From a virus, in IMG/VR virus record IMGVR_UViG_3300038701_002607, positions 1 to 44,332 of that record: a DNA stretch of 44,332 bases. One strand, written 5' to 3'. Positions 1,073-44,332 of this stretch are shown here, piece after piece. Positions within the stretch are counted from its first letter, which is position 1. The number at the start of each line of letters is the position of its first letter. The notes below the pieces were generated by a model that ran no database searches, was not told the DNA's origin, and saw nothing but the letters and a program-made list of their open reading frames with translations. The translations under genes were made by a program, and so were the position numbers.

Positions 1073-2152
1073 TCAGGCCAAATTTTGGTCAGTGGACAAA
1101 TGGTGGACAATCTTGTCCAGCGCAGCAACTGCGTCGCTGTGGTTTTTTGGAGCAAGGTGTGCGTAGATGAGCGTCGTTTTGAGATCGGCGTGTCCGAGCA
1201 ACTCTGATACGACCTGGAGGGATACACCGTTTTGCACCAACCACGATGCAAAGGTGTGACGAAGTGTCTTCATCCCACAGTGCTCCACGCCAGCACGTTT
1301 GAGCGCACGCTCCCATGGATCGCGAAGATGATCGCGGGTGAGCTGCGCGCCCTCATCCCGACAGAACACAAGCCCACCACGCATGTAGCTCTGTGCACGT
1401 TGTGCCATGAGCGCTGACCACGCCGTATCGTTGAGTGTCAGTGTCCGAGGCTTGCCGCCCTTGGTTGGTCCTGTCACGCCATCCGAGTATGAGCGGCGCA
1501 CGACAACTTCCTTCGAGCGCATCCTGATGTCATCCCAACGAAGGGCCACCAGCTCGCCCGTGCGCATGCCCGTGTTGAGGGCAAACTCGACGAGGTTCTT
1601 CAACCATCTTTCATTTTTGGACTGCTCGACGATGGCCGTCGCTTCCCCAACCGTAAACCAACGTTCATAGCTGGCCTCGACCTTGGGTTTGCGGATCTTC
1701 GGCACACGCTCGATGAGATCCCAATCCAGGGCTTGGTTGAGGATTGTGGACAAAATGGCCAAATCACCTCGCACCGTCACAGGCGCAACGTCCTCCAGGC
1801 GAAGGCTGGTGTACCCATCAATGACCAGCGCTGTGATCTCGTCAAGCCGATGTCCCTTGAAGTGTCGAAGAAGGTGTCCGCGAAGACGTGTTGTGCGTCC
1901 TTTGTGGGTGGAGTGTCGCAAGAACGCCTTGCTCCGTTCGATGTACATCTCAATGTAATCCTCAAACAATGGGGCAGGCGGGCGAGCTGGCGGACTTGTC
2001 ACGCGCTCCATTTGCTCTTTACCCCATTGCAGGGCTTTGCGCTTGGTGGCGTGTGGGGCGTTCTTACGAAATCGTTTTCGTTTGCCGGTCGTGGGGCAGA
2101 CGTATCGAAAATACACCTGCCACTTACCGTTACGTTTGTCTGCTGTTATCAT
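1073..2152 (-). CDS. int: Tyrosine site-specific integrase
   Basis: Phage integrase of the tyrosine recombinase family, catalysing recombination between attP and a host tRNA-Leu gene. The N-terminal arm-binding domain is rich in Lys/Arg; a SAM-like core-binding domain precedes the catalytic domain. Catalytic residues are visible: Arg in NTGMRTGEL, Lys in TKGGKPR, His-x-x-Arg in LRHTFASWL, His in LGHADLKTT and Tyr in IYAHL near the C-terminus. Start chosen at ATG 2152 (359 residues) because CAAGGAG lies seven bases upstream; an in-frame ATG at 2179 has no such site. The 3' end overlaps the right-arm binding sites of attP. A 26-codon frame ending in TGA overlapping this ATG (ATGA) may be a leader but has no other support. 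Confidence 0.95.
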   Translation of the reverse strand: MITADKRNGKWQVYFRYVCPTTGKRKRFRKNAPHATKRKALQWGKEQMERVTSPPARPPAPLFEDYIEMYIERSKAFLRHSTHKGRTTRLRGHLLRHFKGHRLDEITALVIDGYTSLRLEDVAPVTVRGDLAILSTILNQALDWDLIERVPKIRKPKVEASYERWFTVGEATAIVEQSKNERWLKNLVEFALNTGMRTGELVALRWDDIRMRSKEVVVRRSYSDGVTGPTKGGKPRTLTLNDTAWSALMAQRAQSYMRGGLVFCRDEGAQLTRDHLRDPWERALKRAGVEHCGMKTLRHTFASWLVQNGVSLQVVSELLGHADLKTTLIYAHLAPKNHSDAVAALDKIVHHLSTDQNLA

Positions 2153-2232
2153 GGGAACTCCTTGAAAGAGGGTGCCCATGCGACTGTTCTTATTGTGCTG
2201 TCAAAGACCACGCGCTGGAACGGTCGCATGGG

Positions 2233-5729: not shown

Positions 5730-5812
5730 GATGCTCTCGTAAGTGAAGACACACACCACAGGTGATATTGGAAAACCGCAGTTGTGATGTGGTTTGGCGT
5801 GGTGTGTGTCAG

Positions 5813-7626: not shown

Positions 7627-7981
7627 ATGTCACTTAATGGTTTGTCTTATGAAAACACTCGCCCTATGGCTTACGAAGGTCCCCAAACATGGGGGTGGTG
7701 GAACTGGAGATTGGCTTACCGCAATACTGTGGTTGCCAATTCAGCAGTGTTGCACCTGCTTGGTTGGTCTCGATGAAGCTCAACAGATATTCGACACCTC
7801 AGGCCTCAGCTTGCCTGAAGGCCTCGACCTGTTGTCTCAAGCCGAACAAGGCGGGTGGATTTCTTCACTTGAAGTGCACCATGACAAAGTGTCGTTTCGG
7901 CTTTCAATCCCCCAAAAAAAGAACGCTCGCAGCAATGATGCTGCGAGCGTTCAATCAACCATGCCCGAAGGCCTAGTCTAA
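7627..7981 (+). pseudogene. Small pre-replication gene read in two frames (+1 frameshift at about 7771)
   Basis: From ATG 7627 the frame encodes 49 residues with a protein-like aromatic run (WGWWNWRLAYRN) and AVLHLLGWS, then stops at TGA 7774-7776. The +1 frame, open from 7637 to 7981, becomes protein-like exactly there (DEAQQIFDTSGLSLPEGLDL, then GGWISSLEVHHDKVSFRLS), while its own N-terminal part does not. The two good halves join at TCT C GAT GAA. This is either a programmed +1 shift, a real broken gene or a sequencing error. An ATGA at the stop opens a third, poor frame. It is the first gene after the operator-controlled rightward promoter. Function unknown; the C-terminal half resembles a small winged-helix unit. 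Confidence 0.5.
7914..7952 (-). terminator. Strong leftward terminator inside the end of the 7627-7981 gene
   Basis: A perfect 14-bp stem, GAACGCTCGCAGCA (7921-7934) and its complement (7939-7952), has a 4-base loop. On the minus strand it is followed by seven T (7920-7914). It would stop antisense transcripts coming from the replication region before they reach the switch. On the plus strand it lacks a T run. Confidence 0.7.
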
Positions 7982-13003: not shown

Positions 13004-13215
13004 AGGGGTATCGACCATACAAGCATAGGTCTGATCGTCATGTTTACAGTTCTTTGGACTCTTACCGAAGACGAACGCGAAACAGGCCGACATCCACAAC
13101 GATCGATATTTTCAGAAGCATTAAGTTGGAAGTGGAGCATCGAGAGAAGCTCAAGCGTGTCCACAAACAACGTTGGGATGAGGCGGGCAGGCCAACACCC
13201 TATCCCATCATCTGA
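13000..13215 (+). CDS. Small basic hypothetical protein
   Basis: 71 residues, very basic (YRPYKHRSDRHV, then YRRRTRNRP) followed by a charged helix (KLEVEHREKLKRVHKQRW). The ATG overlaps the preceding stop. Such basic composition suggests nucleic-acid binding, but no family is recognisable. Last gene before the late region. Confidence 0.55.
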   Translation: MKGYRPYKHRSDRHVYSSLDSYRRRTRNRPTSTTIDIFRSIKLEVEHREKLKRVHKQRWDEAGRPTPYPII

Positions 13216-13279
13216 CACACCACAGGTGACGACCTGCCGGGATCTGCTACCCACAGGCCAACACCCATAAAATACAAGA

Positions 13280-13302
13280 TGCCCCGATCAATGATCGGGG
13301 CA
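13280..13302. other. Near-perfect palindrome before the late region
   Basis: TGCCCCGATCA (13280-13290) and TGATCGGGGCA (13292-13302) are exact complements around one base. There is no T run after it. It could be an operator or a hairpin ending the 13000-13215 transcript weakly. It lies three bases before the larger RNA fold. Confidence 0.5.
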
Positions 13303-13305
13303 CTA

Positions 13306-13411
13306 TGCTGTACCGAGATGGCCCATGCCCCATGCGGGGGAAACGCAACTGGCAAGTTGACGGGGCATGACGGACGCCCTGGCCGGTGTCCCCGGTTGTT
13401 TCGGTACAGCA
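13306..13411 (+). ncRNA. Candidate structured RNA upstream of the terminase genes
   Basis: A perfect 11-bp closing helix, TGCTGTACCGA (13306-13316) with TCGGTACAGCA (13401-13411), surrounds three further helices: ATGCCCC/GGGGCAT (13325-13331 with 13362-13368), an inner CAACT-GGCA-AGTTG tetraloop hairpin (13346-13359), and GGACGCC/GGTGTCC with one GU pair (13372-13378 with 13385-13391). This multibranched plan over 106 bases is far more ordered than chance and does not look like a terminator. It ends 76 bases before the small terminase gene, so it may be a leader or riboregulator of late genes, a small RNA, or a packaging element. I do not recognise it as a known RNA family. Confidence 0.5.
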
Positions 13412-13487
13412 CCATTTACAACCAAAATGCGCATATTCTCAAGGGATACGCATATTTTGCCCATATGTTGAGATAGGAAGAGGCGTT

Positions 13488-13961
13488 ATGGAAATTGCCG
13501 CAAAAGACGATACGGAGCAGCGTCCTCAAGATTGGAGCACGGTCGTGCGCGCTGCGGGGTACATCTATCTTGGGTTCACTCAAAGACAGGCGGCAAAAGC
13601 GGCAGGGTGCTCTGAGCGCTCCATTCGTTTGTGGAAGAAGTGCTCCTGGTGGAGAGATGCCGTCGATGAGTTTCGTGACAATGAACTGTACAAAGAGCTT
13701 GAGCAGGTTGCCGTCAAGCGACTGATGATGGCCATCGGTCGAGAAGGTGACACGTCCACAGCGTTGAAGGTGCTTGAGCGCCTTGTGCCCAGCATGGCAC
13801 CACCAGCTCACCGCGCTGAACTGAGCACCGACCAAAACATCAAAGTGGAAGGCACCATCCCCATGGGTCACATCCCCGACAATGTGTTGCTTGGCCTCGT
13901 GGGTGTGGATGTCACGCAACTGAGGGCGACCCCACAGGATGGCGATGACTCAGACGACTGA
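13488..13961 (+). CDS. terS: Terminase small subunit
   Basis: 157 residues. An N-terminal helix-turn-helix (YLGFTQRQAAKAAGCSERSI, then RLWKKCSWWRDAVDEF) recognises the packaging site in this family; a helical oligomerisation part follows (ELYKELEQVAVKRLMMAIG). AGGAAGAGG before ATG 13488 supports the start. It directly precedes and overlaps the large subunit. Two copies of CGCATATT (about 13430 and 13452) and a CATATG precede it, possible regulatory sites. Confidence 0.85.
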   Translation: MEIAAKDDTEQRPQDWSTVVRAAGYIYLGFTQRQAAKAAGCSERSIRLWKKCSWWRDAVDEFRDNELYKELEQVAVKRLMMAIGREGDTSTALKVLERLVPSMAPPAHRAELSTDQNIKVEGTIPMGHIPDNVLLGLVGVDVTQLRATPQDGDDSDD

Positions 13962-15525
13962 CGAGGCGTTTGACTGGGGGGATCTGCGTTCGATCGTTCA
14001 CGGTCCCACGCCCATGGCTGCGTTTGGGCTGTGGGGGTGCCTAAACGACGAGCAGCAACGTTATGTGCTCGACGCACTGCCTGACCGTAACGCGTCCTTG
14101 GCGGAGTTGGGGCGTCGGTTCTTCCGTATCTTCGTCGCGCTGATGAAGCCTCAATATGATCTTGAGTGGTTCCATGAAGTCATCTGCGAAGAGATCCAAA
14201 AGTGGGCGGATGCCAAAGACCCGTATACGCTCCTGTTCTCCATGCCACCAGGGCACGGAAAATCAGAGTACGCGAAGTTGGCCTCGGCATGGTTGATTGC
14301 GCGAGACCTTGATAACCGTATTGCATACGCCTCATACGCACAGCAATTTGCCGATGATCAGGGCGCGGATGTACAGGCCATCGTGGACTCGCAAGAGTTT
14401 CGTCATCTGTTTGGTCATCTGATCAACAGCAGGCGGGCCGTCACCGATGAGACACGCGGTGCAAAGCGTACAGCCGGATATTTCGAGGTCATCGGCGGTG
14501 ACGGGTCATTTAAGACGGTTGGTCGTGGCGGTGGTCTCACAGGCAAACGGCTTGATATCGGGATTGTCGATGACATCCTCAAGGATGACCAGGAGGCATA
14601 CTCTCAGACCATTCGAGACCAGTCCTATCGTTGGTACAACCGCGTGCTCGGCACACGCAAGCGCCCAAAGCGTCCATACCGGCGCCTGATCCTCGCGACG
14701 CGTTGGCACCTCGATGACCTGTCAGGCCGCATCAAGAGCTCAGGCGTGCCCTATGTGGAACTGCGCTTCGAGGCACTTCGTGAGGACATGTCCGACCCTC
14801 GTGACCCGCGCGCATACGGTGAGGCGTTGTGGTCAGATGTGGAGACACAAGAGTCGCTGGAGCGCATTCGAGAGCAAGATCCCGAAGGCTTCGCCGCGCT
14901 GTACCAGCAGAATCCTGTCATTGCGGGCGGCAACATCATCCGCGATGACTGGATACAGACGTACATGCACCTGCCTGACTGCCCCGGTACATGGTATCAG
15001 TCCTGCGACCCCAAACATGGCAGCCGTGACCCTGCATCGAGTGACTTCGTCAACCAACTCTGGTTTCAGCCCGATGACTGGCCAGGGCGCTTGTATCTGG
15101 TCAATGAGGTGCGAGGCGTGCTCGGCACCACCGAGTCACTTGACGCATGGGACCAGTGCCAGGTCATGGAGGTGTGGAACCGGACCTCGGTGCGATTCAT
15201 TGAAGAAAAGGGCGACGGCGTCACCATCATCGACATGCGCCGTGATCAGGTGCCCGGTATCATCGGCGTGCAACCATCAGGTACGAAAGAGCTTCGTCTG
15301 CGCCGTGTGGCGGCATATTATCGTGCTGGCAATATCTATTATCCTGACGAGTCCATCGCGCCATGGATACGTGCACACAGGGCGCAGGTGCTCAACTTCC
15401 CCATGGATGCCAAAGACGATATGGTGGACGCTGAGACACAAATCATTGAACAGGTATTGTTCCCCGTCGACCGTGATGATACATTGACCGCAGAGCAGAT
15501 ATTGGAATTGCAGTCGCAATATTAG
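13939..15525 (+). CDS. terL: Terminase large subunit
   Basis: 528 residues. ATPase motor: Walker A-type MPPGHGKSEY (about residue 105) and Walker B DIGIVDDIL (about 210), followed by LILATRWH as coupling motif. The C-terminal RNase H-like nuclease has DPKHGS, then EEKGDG, and DAKDDMVDA near residue 495. It cuts concatemers and pumps DNA into the procapsid. The start overlaps TerS by 23 bases; ATG 13945 is an alternative with a better spaced GGATGG. Confidence 0.95.
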   Translation: MAMTQTTDEAFDWGDLRSIVHGPTPMAAFGLWGCLNDEQQRYVLDALPDRNASLAELGRRFFRIFVALMKPQYDLEWFHEVICEEIQKWADAKDPYTLLFSMPPGHGKSEYAKLASAWLIARDLDNRIAYASYAQQFADDQGADVQAIVDSQEFRHLFGHLINSRRAVTDETRGAKRTAGYFEVIGGDGSFKTVGRGGGLTGKRLDIGIVDDILKDDQEAYSQTIRDQSYRWYNRVLGTRKRPKRPYRRLILATRWHLDDLSGRIKSSGVPYVELRFEALREDMSDPRDPRAYGEALWSDVETQESLERIREQDPEGFAALYQQNPVIAGGNIIRDDWIQTYMHLPDCPGTWYQSCDPKHGSRDPASSDFVNQLWFQPDDWPGRLYLVNEVRGVLGTTESLDAWDQCQVMEVWNRTSVRFIEEKGDGVTIIDMRRDQVPGIIGVQPSGTKELRLRRVAAYYRAGNIYYPDESIAPWIRAHRAQVLNFPMDAKDDMVDAETQIIEQVLFPVDRDDTLTAEQILELQSQY

Positions 15526-38144: not shown

Positions 38145-38309
38145 GCGGTGCAATAAAGGGTGATTCTTTGCAACGTGCGTTGACCCATCGCAAAATATGG
38201 TCAAGAATTGCACTTACGATATTCGCAAGGGCGAGCTGCACTTCGGTGTGGTGCGAATGTGCTTTTAAGCACGTGCCCGTGACCAGTTGCATGAGATGAG
38301 CGCTGGTAC

Positions 38310-38344
38310 AAAGAAGGCCTGGTCGCTATGACCAGGCCTTCTTT
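38310..38344. terminator. Bidirectional terminator between late genes and cargo cassette
   Basis: A perfect 15-bp stem, AAAGAAGGCCTGGTC (38310-38324) and GACCAGGCCTTCTTT (38330-38344), with 5-base loop. T-rich on the plus side and, by symmetry, on the minus side. It separates convergent transcripts. The remaining gap 38145-38309 has a small GTGCT-TTTA-AGCAC hairpin and no gene. Confidence 0.88.
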
Positions 38345-38380
38345 GGTTTGTTGGCATCAATAAATATGGGTGGCCAAGTA

Positions 38381-39593: not shown

Positions 39594-40445
39594 TCATTTT
39601 CCCTCCAAAGTTTCTTTGATTTCACCGAACCAATCTTGAGCCTCTTGGATGTTCTTTTGGCGTTGGGTCGGATGTTTTTGAATCAATGTTGATATAAAGT
39701 CACTAAATGATGACTCAATGTCCTCTTTTAAGTTGAGTTTTGGTAGTTGTAGCCTTTCTACTCTGTTAATAACTTCAAAGCGATCTTTTGCGTTTTGCAG
39801 GAATGGGTTTTGACCCGTTAATGATTCATACAAAACTACTCCCAAAGAGAATAAGTCTGCTCTGTTGTCGATTTTGTCCTTTTTGTTGCGAACTTGTTCC
39901 GGCGCACTGTACCCGAGCGTAAATACTCCAAATTCTCTTCTTGTCTCGGTGAGAGAATCCATATCCAAGTGTCTGGCTATGCCAAAATCAATCAACCAGA
40001 AGTTATTGTTGATATCAACGATGATATTGTCTGGTTTGATGTCTCTGTGAACAATGCGTTGTTGCTCTGCAAGAGCAAGAGTCTTAAGTATTTGATCGCA
40101 AAGTTTTAGAGCCAAAGCGAACGACAACGTTTTGTGTTTGGCTAATCTTGTTTTTAGGCTTTCCCCATCGATACGTTGTTCAAGTATCCAAATATACTCA
40201 CCCATTGGGGTTTCAACAGTCCCTTTGTTGTGAATGGTTGGCACCCAAATAGCGTCCACCAATTGGGTTGCCTTGATTTCCCTGTCGAGGCGTTCTTCTT
40301 TGTGCTTCTGAATGAGTTTTAAGACAATATTACCGTGTTGCTGATGGTTCCCTGATAAAACAATTTTTTGGCCGCCTTTAGCCAAAAAAGCCAAATCATT
40401 AAGTGACTCAAATTTTTCGGAAACCCAATTAAGGTTGATTGTCAT
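39594..40445 (-). CDS. Cargo cassette protein B: Ser/Thr protein kinase
   Basis: 283 residues, a complete eukaryotic-like (Hanks-type) kinase domain with no membrane segment. Glycine-rich loop LAKGGQKIV is weak; the ATP Lys is in NIVLKLI; catalytic loop HRDIKPDNI (about 131); LIDFGIA (about 154); activation segment ending GYSAPEQ; LFSLGVVLYESLTG of the F-helix. All catalytic residues (K, HRD, DFG) are present, so it should be active. AAGGA precedes ATG 40445; an upstream in-frame start at 40499 lies within the nuclease gene. The gene sits between A and C in one transcript. Kinases in phage cargo can trigger defence (for example Stk-type systems); the trigger here is unknown. Confidence 0.93.
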   Translation of the reverse strand: MTINLNWVSEKFESLNDLAFLAKGGQKIVLSGNHQQHGNIVLKLIQKHKEERLDREIKATQLVDAIWVPTIHNKGTVETPMGEYIWILEQRIDGESLKTRLAKHKTLSFALALKLCDQILKTLALAEQQRIVHRDIKPDNIIVDINNNFWLIDFGIARHLDMDSLTETRREFGVFTLGYSAPEQVRNKKDKIDNRADLFSLGVVLYESLTGQNPFLQNAKDRFEVINRVERLQLPKLNLKEDIESSFSDFISTLIQKHPTQRQKNIQEAQDWFGEIKETLEGK

Positions 40446-40458
40446 ATTCGTATTCCTT

Positions 40459-41238
40459 TTATTCATTGTGTGAATGTTGAATTCTCCAAATCCATTCATT
40501 TAGCAACCAAGAAATGTATGAAGTCTGAGCTGACCGCGCTTTTGGCTTGGACAGTGTTTGGGTGGTGGCGTTTGAATGCGACATCACCCCTATTCCTCGC
40601 TGCCTTGCTTGATTTAACACATCAGATGATTGTGTTTTTGGTATTAGCGCGTGAGATTCAGAACTGAACCAAGTATTTGCGTGGGCTTGGTTTATCAATC
40701 GTTGAGATCCTGTCATTTTTGCTTCAATAGAAAATATATGTTCAATTGCGAAAAATTGATGCGTTGACCTCAACTTACATTTGTTGGTTCGTCTTATGAG
40801 GAGTTGAGCTGCCTCTATTCTGTCTAAGTTAGCGCTGAGGGTTTTAGGGAATAGTTTTTTTAAAAACTCGTACGAAGTCCACCCCATACCAGACAAGACG
40901 TGGAGCAATTTGATATCCAGCGGTTCAAGTTGAGACCTTTCAACCGCCCAATTTTGCATTGCCTTTTTCTTCCAAACGACAGCAACAATATCTGGGTATG
41001 ATCCGCATATTTCAGGTTCAATAAATATGCTCAACCCTGATTTTTTAGGCACGAACCATGTCTGGTTATTGAGGAATTCGCGAACAAATTCTAGCTCAGG
41101 ACCAACAGTTGGCGTCCTTTTTCGAAACCCTAGGCCAATGCCTTTTGATTGCTCATCTGTAACAACTGCACTTGTTCCACAAATTGATTGACAGTTCTTG
41201 TTGGATGTATACATGTCTTGAAGAGTTGTTGGTTTCAT
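40459..41238 (-). CDS. Cargo cassette protein A: PD-(D/E)xK-like nuclease with inserted winged helix
   Basis: 259 residues. The pattern PD (residues 82-83, SYPDIVAVVW) and ExK (172-174, FSIEAKM), followed by NQAHANTW and IPKTQSSDVLNQARQRG, is that of PD-(D/E)xK nucleases, whose QA helix follows the ExK strand. Between the two motifs (about 105-160) is a winged-helix-like unit (LDIKLLHVLSGMGWTSYEFL, then ANLDRIEAAQLLIR). This split is unusual. First gene of the cassette; no Shine-Dalgarno is visible before ATG 41238. AT-rich. It could cut invader or own DNA when the cassette is triggered. Confidence 0.72.
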   Translation of the reverse strand: MKPTTLQDMYTSNKNCQSICGTSAVVTDEQSKGIGLGFRKRTPTVGPELEFVREFLNNQTWFVPKKSGLSIFIEPEICGSYPDIVAVVWKKKAMQNWAVERSQLEPLDIKLLHVLSGMGWTSYEFLKKLFPKTLSANLDRIEAAQLLIRRTNKCKLRSTHQFFAIEHIFSIEAKMTGSQRLINQAHANTWFSSESHALIPKTQSSDVLNQARQRGIGVMSHSNATTQTLSKPKARSAQTSYISWLLNEWIWRIQHSHNE

Positions 41239-42662: not shown

Positions 42663-42719
42663 GTTGTCTCCGTTGAGTTGTGAAGCTGCTGTGTGCCGCC
42701 TCGGTGATTAAGTTGTCTC

Positions 42720-42760
42720 AAATATCGTCGATAATTTCAATTTGAATATCGACGATATTT
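42720..42760. promoter_or_regulatory. Symmetrical double operator
   Basis: A perfect 14-bp inverted repeat, AAATATCGTCGATA (42720-42733) and TATCGACGATATTT (42747-42760), has a 13-base AT-rich spacer. Each arm contains its own 11-bp palindrome, TATCG-W-CGATA. The 10-mer CGACGATATT is shared with the switch operator at 7103-7112. It sits between the terminator at 42764 and the leftward genes, where the promoter must be, so a regulator binding here would repress the 42662 operon. Confidence 0.7.
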
Positions 42761-42763
42761 AAA

Positions 42764-42806
42764 AAAGAAGAAGCCACGAGCAATAAGCGATCGTGGCTTC
42801 TTCTTT
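42764..42806. terminator. Bidirectional terminator after the lipoprotein operon
   Basis: A perfect 16-bp stem, AAAGAAGAAGCCACGA (42764-42779) and TCGTGGCTTCTTCTTT (42791-42806), with 11-base loop. On the minus strand the stem ends in a T run (from AAAAAA at 42761-42766). It ends the transcript from the lipoprotein gene. Stretch 42807-42929 shows no further gene. Confidence 0.85.
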
Positions 42807-42929
42807 GGTTGCGTTTACCCCGCCCTCGAACTTAACTGCCGTATGGCGCGTGGAGCAGGCTGAGGGGCGCTGACATGTGGGTTATCGGCCCGCCTGCCAG
42901 CGTGTTGCGTATTTTGTTGAGAATATCGC

Positions 42930-44048
42930 TTATTGGTTGAACCACATGTCAAACTCGACCTGCTTGGTGCCCAACATGCCCTTCTCGGGAATGATAAGTT
43001 TGAGCTTGCTCCGTTTCTCAACTGAATCCAGGGGCACCTCAAAAGCGATGTATTGTTCTACAGGCAGGCCCGGCTGAAGTTCTTGGACGAGCAGCTCGGC
43101 CTTGTTCGTCATGACCAATGCTCGGGTGGCCTTGCTTGACGCTCTGAACTGCCGACCTTTGGCATCCTTGAGCACCAGGTCGCCTGTGAGCACCGTGCGT
43201 GTTTTGTTGTCCGCGTTTTTGATGCTGTACTTGATGGTGACGAAGGTGCCGCCCTTGGTTGCCTTTTGTTTGATAAATCGGTTTTTGCCGATCTGTTTGG
43301 TCAACTCCGCGCTGATGACCTTGTATTCAAAGTCACCCAGCTTGAAGACCTTTCCGTAGTCGGGTGTCTTCATGTCTTCACGCATTATGGGAAGCAGTAG
43401 GTCGAGAAGCTGCTGCGTTTTGTCTATCATTAAAACAGTTACTTGATCCTGAATATGACCAACCATGATGTGAGAACCCTTGCAATTACCAATGTAACTT
43501 TCAGACTCAAAACTTTCTTGAATTTCTTTTTTGTTCGAAACGATCACCTTCTGTTTAGTGCAGAGCATCAATGGTAATTTTTTAAATGCTTTGTTGTTTC
43601 GCTTAAACTCCTTTGCCTCAATGTAGCTAATTTGTTTATTGAAGGTCATGAGGTGAACTAGGGCGGTGTTGCCAAATATTTTCAGCTTGGGACATAGCCA
43701 GCTGACTCTCTCCAAATGCCCAAATGGTCCACCTTTTTTCTCAATATCTTTAACCACCCACCCTTTTTTACACTTGGGCAAGGTCTCTTTCTTCGTGAGC
43801 GTTTTGCCTGACCACCCAAAGTTGAAGTCACCCAAGGGCTCCTCCGGCAAGAGCTTTGATGGTTGATATTTTGGAGGTTCAGGCGGCTTCTTTTGTGCTG
43901 GTTCAGCCTTTGGCTTGACTGCGACTGGTGGCTTGGTTGTGTCATCGGAATTGTCTGTGATCTTGACTGGCTTCTTGGAGTCGCATCCCAAAATAAACAG
44001 ACAGGCGCTGATGGCGATCAGGTACTTCATTGCATCACTCGGCTTCAT
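42930..44048 (-). CDS. Lipoprotein with DUF4352-like C-terminal domain
   Basis: 372 residues from ATG 44048. A signal peptide ends in a lipobox: MKYLIAISACLFILGC, with acylation expected on the Cys. A Pro/Lys-rich linker (VAVKPKAEPAQKKPPEPPKY) follows, then an AT-richer middle domain with paired cysteines, then a C-terminal immunoglobulin-like domain of DUF4352 type (GGTFVTIKYSIKNADNKTRT, LVLKDAKGRQFRASSKAT, YIAFEVPLDSV). The start could also be ATG 44069 or 44030. It forms an operon with the junction-spanning membrane protein. Lipoproteins made by prophages often block superinfection; that use here is inferred. Its central part differs in base composition from both ends. Confidence 0.82.
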   Translation of the reverse strand: MKPSDAMKYLIAISACLFILGCDSKKPVKITDNSDDTTKPPVAVKPKAEPAQKKPPEPPKYQPSKLLPEEPLGDFNFGWSGKTLTKKETLPKCKKGWVVKDIEKKGGPFGHLERVSWLCPKLKIFGNTALVHLMTFNKQISYIEAKEFKRNNKAFKKLPLMLCTKQKVIVSNKKEIQESFESESYIGNCKGSHIMVGHIQDQVTVLMIDKTQQLLDLLLPIMREDMKTPDYGKVFKLGDFEYKVISAELTKQIGKNRFIKQKATKGGTFVTIKYSIKNADNKTRTVLTGDLVLKDAKGRQFRASSKATRALVMTNKAELLVQELQPGLPVEQYIAFEVPLDSVEKRSKLKLIIPEKGMLGTKQVEFDMWFNQ

Positions 44049-44058
44049 TTTTAAAACT

Positions 44059-44332
44059 TCACTGATCATGGGCGATTTCCATCATTGCGTTGATGATCTG
44101 GGTGTCCTGCATTGGCACATAGCCCGCTTCACGGAACACGAATGCCTTGGGTTGTCCTTGGGATGGCTGCACCAACATGGCGTTGATTGCAGGTTGCCAG
44201 CTCATTAAATCATTCCATGGCATTGACCAGTTTTGGCCATGGCCTTGGCTGACGAAGGTTACGCGTTGGGGAGTGATGACCAAGACTCCTTCACCTTCCA
44301 TGTGGTCATACTTGACCTTGTGTTCGATGATC
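44059..44332 (-). CDS. C-terminal part of the junction-spanning PH-like membrane protein
   Basis: This is the other end of the gene that begins at 658. Bases 44205-44332 duplicate the window start, and 44204-44059 is the unique C-terminal part ending in TGA at 44061-44059. The residues here finish the PH-like domain (EGVLVITPQRVTFV, then a strand with FVFREAG, then an amphipathic C-terminal helix). The only difference between the two copies lies at base 127/44331 (c versus t), changing a Val codon GTC to Ile ATC, which is conservative. Read as a linear sequence it would look like a separate 80-residue gene, but that is an artefact of the cut point. Confidence 0.8.
   Translation of the reverse strand, partial: IIEHKVKYDHMEGEGVLVITPQRVTFVSQGHGQNWSMPWNDLMSWQPAINAMLVQPSQGQPKAFVFREAGYVPMQDTQIINAMMEIAHDQ
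44205..44332. repeat. Terminal direct repeat (right copy), circular overlap
   Basis: Second copy of bases 1-128 with one mismatch at 44331. Joining 44204 to base 1 restores one uninterrupted gene across the junction, which supports circularity over a true packaged terminal repeat. Confidence 0.93.

Follow-up and report, generated by a model that had tools for sequence, protein, structure and literature searches.

What is the 106-nucleotide sequence that separates the replication genes of a temperate phage from its terminase genes, and does it work as RNA, as DNA, or not at all? The earlier note on this locus had taken it for a multibranched RNA candidate; this reading is plausible and partly supported, by the folding statistics, the better fold of the plus strand, the non-coding setting and a local peak in G+C, while searches of Rfam and for homologs came back empty.

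The window, that is, the whole stretch of DNA analysed (44,332 nucleotides), has near-identical ends, positions 1-128 and 44205-44332 agreeing in 127 of 128 bases; since its first 128 bases are thus repeated at its end, it is most simply read as a complete circular or circularly permuted genome. The source would then be a complete, temperate, myovirus-like phage of 44 kb with a sheath gene and an integrase. Integrase and lysogeny-side genes occupy the minus strand; the early genes of the plus strand encode O-like, DnaC-like and DnaB-like replication proteins and are followed by genes of 384 and 194 aa and an ORF of 71 aa. After a gap comes a plus-strand run of late genes of about 25 kb (terS, terL, portal, protease, MCP, sheath, tape measure, baseplate). 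The element had been described as preceding the late operon, and indeed it lies between early genes of the same direction and the terS-terL-portal-protease-MCP-sheath run. The putative terminase small subunit (13488..13961, plus strand), which starts 76 nt past the element, has coding-like codon use, a weak PHROG match (E 0.007) and a match to HTH_23 (E 0.009); the large subunit (13939..15525, plus strand) matches phrog_38 with an E-value of 2.5e-76 and has the acidic residues of the ATPase and, in invariant motif columns, those of an RNase H-like nuclease (D357, E422, D493 and D494).

Elsewhere in the genome, the integrase gene (1073-2179, minus strand) adjoins a 3′ tRNA-Leu-like end at about 970-1028, CTAAGGATCTAGTG...GGGGGTTCGAGTCCCCCCTTCCGCA, which is probably the phage attachment site and to which the 3′ ends of tRNA-Leu genes of the Lujinxingia class are near-identical. 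The closest matches of the phage DnaB (9869-11188), at 43-45%, are DnaB proteins from Lujinxingia and from other genomes of the Myxococcales/Bradymonadia type, a likeness that gives a hint of the host; no related prophage was found in the Lujinxingia/Bradymonadia-type genomes. A serine-threonine kinase-like gene (phrog_2361) is present in the accessory region at 39594-40499. Several strong hairpins lie far from the element: at 7921-7952, a perfect hairpin of 14 bp that on the minus strand is followed by TTTT, likely a terminator; a perfect 16-bp hairpin (38309-38345) between the convergent late and accessory blocks, likely a bidirectional terminator; and two strong adjacent hairpins (42718-42823) in intergenic DNA rich in A+T, downstream of the minus-strand gene 42930-44069, one of which is followed by a T run.

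The element itself (13306..13411, plus strand) is predicted to form a basal helix, P1, which opens into a three-way junction with two further arms, P2 and P3. The coordinates and the perfect 11-bp closing helix reported before are exact (TGCTGTACCGA/TCGGTACAGCA, 13306-13316 with 13401-13411); in the computed fold this helix is extended by seven pairs, four of them G-U (13317-13323 with 13394-13400), to an 18-bp P1 whose strands, recovered as an inverted repeat and in the pair list, are 13306..13323 and 13394..13411. P2 (CATGCCCC/GGGGCATG, 8 bp, 13324-13331 with 13362-13369) spans 13324..13369 and encloses two small helices: P2a, three pairs of GCG with CGC (13334-13336/13344-13346) closed by the loop GGGGAAA, and P2b, of 4-5 bp, which is the hairpin CAACT-GGCA-AGTTG already pointed out in the earlier note. 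P3 (13372..13391) pairs GGACGCC with GGTGTCC over 7 bp with one G-U (13372-13378/13385-13391), and its loop, CUGGCC, holds the self-complementary GGCC. There are hence four internal helices rather than the three first counted, and five G-U pairs in the pair list in place of one. The fold is weakest in P2a and P2b, which have alternative registers 0.1-1 kcal/mol away. A pairing of the upstream palindrome arm 13279-13290 with 13358-13368, seen by eye, was dismissed, as separate hairpins are strongly favoured by the minimum free energy.

The description of the structure as highly ordered is borne out by its statistics. The minimum free energy is −58.9 kcal/mol (z −4.84), no shuffled sequence out of 200 did equally well, and the predicted pairs have a mean pairing probability of 0.95, that is, a single structure dominates. 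When 106-nt windows were sampled at every second base on both strands (22,113 positions per strand), the element was the most stable in the 44-kb genome, the runner-up reaching −54.8. With a larger null, 5 of 50,000 dinucleotide shuffles matched its stability (p about 1e-4), a significance that is not overwhelming given the look over a 44-kb genome. It is unlikely, though worth weighing, that the sequence has no specific function at all, being either a stable fold that arose by chance in G+C-rich DNA between genes or the remains of a decayed element; these five shuffles, together with the fact that the element was picked by a reader from the entire window and that no search found a homolog, speak for that explanation, whereas its rank as the most stable window sampled, its location in non-coding DNA and the combination of an 18-bp closing helix with several coherent inner helices speak against it.

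The element sits within a 272-nt non-coding gap (13216-13487) leading from the early genes to terS-terL, and its G+C content of 0.64 forms a local peak against 0.41 directly downstream. The ORFs that overlap it were rejected as genes for their non-coding-like codon use (log-odds per codon of −0.08, −0.10 and −0.31, compared with +0.19 for terS).

If the sequence acts through a transcript, the strand matters. The minus strand folds worse (−47.4, z −2.35) than the plus strand, an asymmetry of 11.5 kcal/mol, which is as large in 7% of all windows; in addition, all five non-Watson-Crick pairs in the helices are G-U on the plus strand, and A-C oppositions are absent from the helices. The better fold of the plus strand and the nature of these pairs are modest evidence for an RNA that is read toward the late genes. 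They also weigh on a DNA-level role, in which the element would be part of a cos or pac site recognised by TerS, or a protein-binding dyad, its inverted repeats acting as DNA. Packaging sites are commonly located directly upstream of terS, as this element is, and the same gap contains a palindrome of 23 bp as well as direct repeats of 11 bp; yet the G-U-rich extension of the helix and the strand asymmetry favour RNA, and as single-strand DNA the element has a poorly defined fold, which leaves such a site distinctly unlikely.

The palindrome that had been noted ahead of the element is a perfect inverted repeat (13280..13302; TGCCCCGATCA-A-TGATCGGGGCA, 11-bp arms around a 1-nt centre), 3 nt upstream. 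In the terminator scan it has a T-rich tail on the minus strand only, and a second close copy was not found in the genome; it is a putative minus-strand terminator-like hairpin or operator. Between the element and terS, two 11-bp direct repeat units, ATGCGCATATT and ATACGCATATT, lie 19 nt apart (13427..13456, plus strand) and are possible protein-binding sites. The start of the gap (13216-13229) carries a 14-base sequence, CACACCACAGGTGA, which recurs exactly at 5752-5765 in another apparently non-coding stretch and is possibly a shared operator. The element is not considered a mobile inverted-repeat element, as it has neither a flanking duplication nor another copy.

With respect to signals that start or end transcripts, neither the gap region nor the sequence before the element yielded a sigma-70-like promoter, and the terminator scan of the gap revealed no plus-strand intrinsic terminator that has a proper U-tract. 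The earlier statement that the element lacks terminator features is thus essentially right for the plus strand; P3 followed by CCGGTTGTTT is a loose match of a kind that chance would produce 0.8 times in the sequence scanned. The identity of the whole element as an intrinsic terminator was rejected, for the 18-bp P1 runs into CCATTTACAACC and not into a U-tract. These signals bear on a further alternative, namely a stand-alone stable small RNA of the phage, made from its own promoter or by processing, which would act in trans by base pairing, by sequestering a protein or by pairing with itself through the GGCC loop of P3. The closed, self-contained domain with ends paired over 18 bp would suit such a molecule; the lack of a sigma-70-like promoter before it and of a U-tract terminator after it does not, nor does the observation that complementary stretches elsewhere in the genome extend no further than 11-mers, and we regard a trans-acting RNA as doubtful.

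Relatives were sought in several ways. An Rfam search, named in the earlier note as a check, gave 0 matches in the whole window, to a riboswitch or any other family (Rfam 15, gathering threshold); relaxed to E 10 over 13200-13500 it again gave none for the element, and a chance match of a microRNA model (E 0.15) falls outside it. ARAGORN, run for tRNA and tmRNA, returned nothing that explains the element, and blastn against phage and plasmid DNA found no similar sequence. DNA patterns based on four parts of the element (the hairpin P2b, the junction, the loop of P2a, the closing helix) gave nothing or chance matches in IMG/VR, and none of the loci so matched had a covariance-model score above noise. 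A single-sequence covariance model recovered the window itself only among 97 sources, including 80 loci of the nearest terminases, and had no match in 57 genomes of the possible host class. As for the phage itself, scans of IMG/VR proteins with TerL and TerS yielded no confirmed relative, the DnaB search and the TerL profile led to distant phages only, and the nearest TerL proteins are about 30-40% identical. Upstream of TerL in the 80 nearest IMG/VR terminase loci no common structure was seen, those inspected having mostly long hairpins; in the possible host class, the TerL relatives reach only 25-33% identity and no comparable element was seen in the regions around them, and a search of 377 genomes from the possible host phylum did not find the phage MCP. 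By these sequence and covariance searches the element is an orphan, claimed by no known family, although the lack of a homolog in the collections searched is not proof that none exists.

Known phage RNAs offer comparisons of topology and position. The pRNA of phage phi29 binds the portal in the prohead and is needed for packaging, where it works with gp16, an ATPase of a type without a working nuclease domain. With this RNA (Rfam Bacteriophage_pRNA, about 100-120 nt) the element shares size, paired 5′ and 3′ ends, a three-way junction and a phage genome that encodes it, and its link to packaging is one of position only. That it is a packaging RNA, part of a DNA motor as in phi29, is nevertheless very improbable: the resemblance (106 against 120 nt, paired ends, junction, adjoining packaging genes) is offset by the absence of a sequence match and of a covariance-model match, at the gathering threshold as well as at E 10 in 13200-13500, and by an ordinary TerS/TerL pair, the latter a phrog_38 protein with its nuclease residues kept, unlike gp16. 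Moreover, phi29 is a small protein-primed podophage, whereas the source phage is temperate, has a sheathed tail and 44 kb of DNA, and carries TerS, DnaB, DnaC-like and integrase genes; a current review treats pRNA as a feature of phi29-type phages alone (PMC11476376).

A different precedent is a nascent RNA that modifies the polymerase making it. The put RNA of phage HK022 suppresses termination and pausing in cis via the zinc-binding domain of the RNA polymerase beta′ subunit. It is about 70 nt long and consists of two side-by-side stem-loops near the early promoters (PMC9378689). The element resembles put as a phage RNA structure placed to modify elongation into a long operon, and differs in being a closed three-way junction with an 18-bp P1 before the late genes; as identities for the element, both put and phi29-type pRNA fail, on partners or topology. 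RNase III processing sites, as in T7 and lambda, lie between phage mRNA segments, and the element is similar to them as a long intergenic helix between gene blocks of the same direction, but it branches more than the irregular hairpin typical of such sites and is known here as a predicted fold; set against the near-perfect helix of about 20 bp or more that is expected for RNase III, P1 has 18 bp and could stack on P2 or P3. Abundant intergenic non-coding RNAs are also reported from the mycobacteriophages D29, L5 and StarStuff, where they were found by expression (PMC5712189); like these, the element would be an intergenic phage RNA without an assigned role, in its case recognised from sequence alone.

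The best explanation, tentatively held and somewhat short of an even chance, is an orphan, cis-acting structured spacer or leader RNA at the early-late boundary, which would act through RNA processing or through control of read-through into the late genes. In its favour are the position, the strand preference, the stable three-way-junction fold, the non-coding ORFs, the G+C peak and the lack of a plus-strand terminator; against it count the missing homolog, an asymmetry as great in 7% of windows, and 80 terminase loci without a common element. We infer that the gap is transcribed on the plus strand, as the early genes run in this direction and a sigma-70-like promoter was not detected. A transcript would then cross from the early (replication) into the late (terminase, head, tail) genes, RNA polymerase making the hairpin 13280-13302 first and the 106-nt domain next, and this domain would act on the late message. 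Two modes of action seem likeliest: processing of the mRNA, or protection of a 5′ or 3′ end, at the element, where a nuclease of the RNase III type would be well served by the 18-bp P1 if it stacks on P2 or P3; or control, by the nascent domain, of read-through of the polymerase into the 25-kb late operon. If there were a late promoter within 13412-13487, the RNA would be the last part of the early message instead. A bolder proposal is that the element represents a new family of phage three-way-junction RNAs, which in a little-studied host group and without a known protein antiterminator would gate the early-to-late switch or serve in packaging; we rate this as quite improbable.

At present, then, the element is a single orphan whose folding statistics are good, a plausible candidate and not an established regulatory element. 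Should it prove real, a temperate phage with otherwise unrecognised regulators would have an RNA control element at its early-late boundary, and a new RNA family could be built from this seed when sequences of relatives become available.
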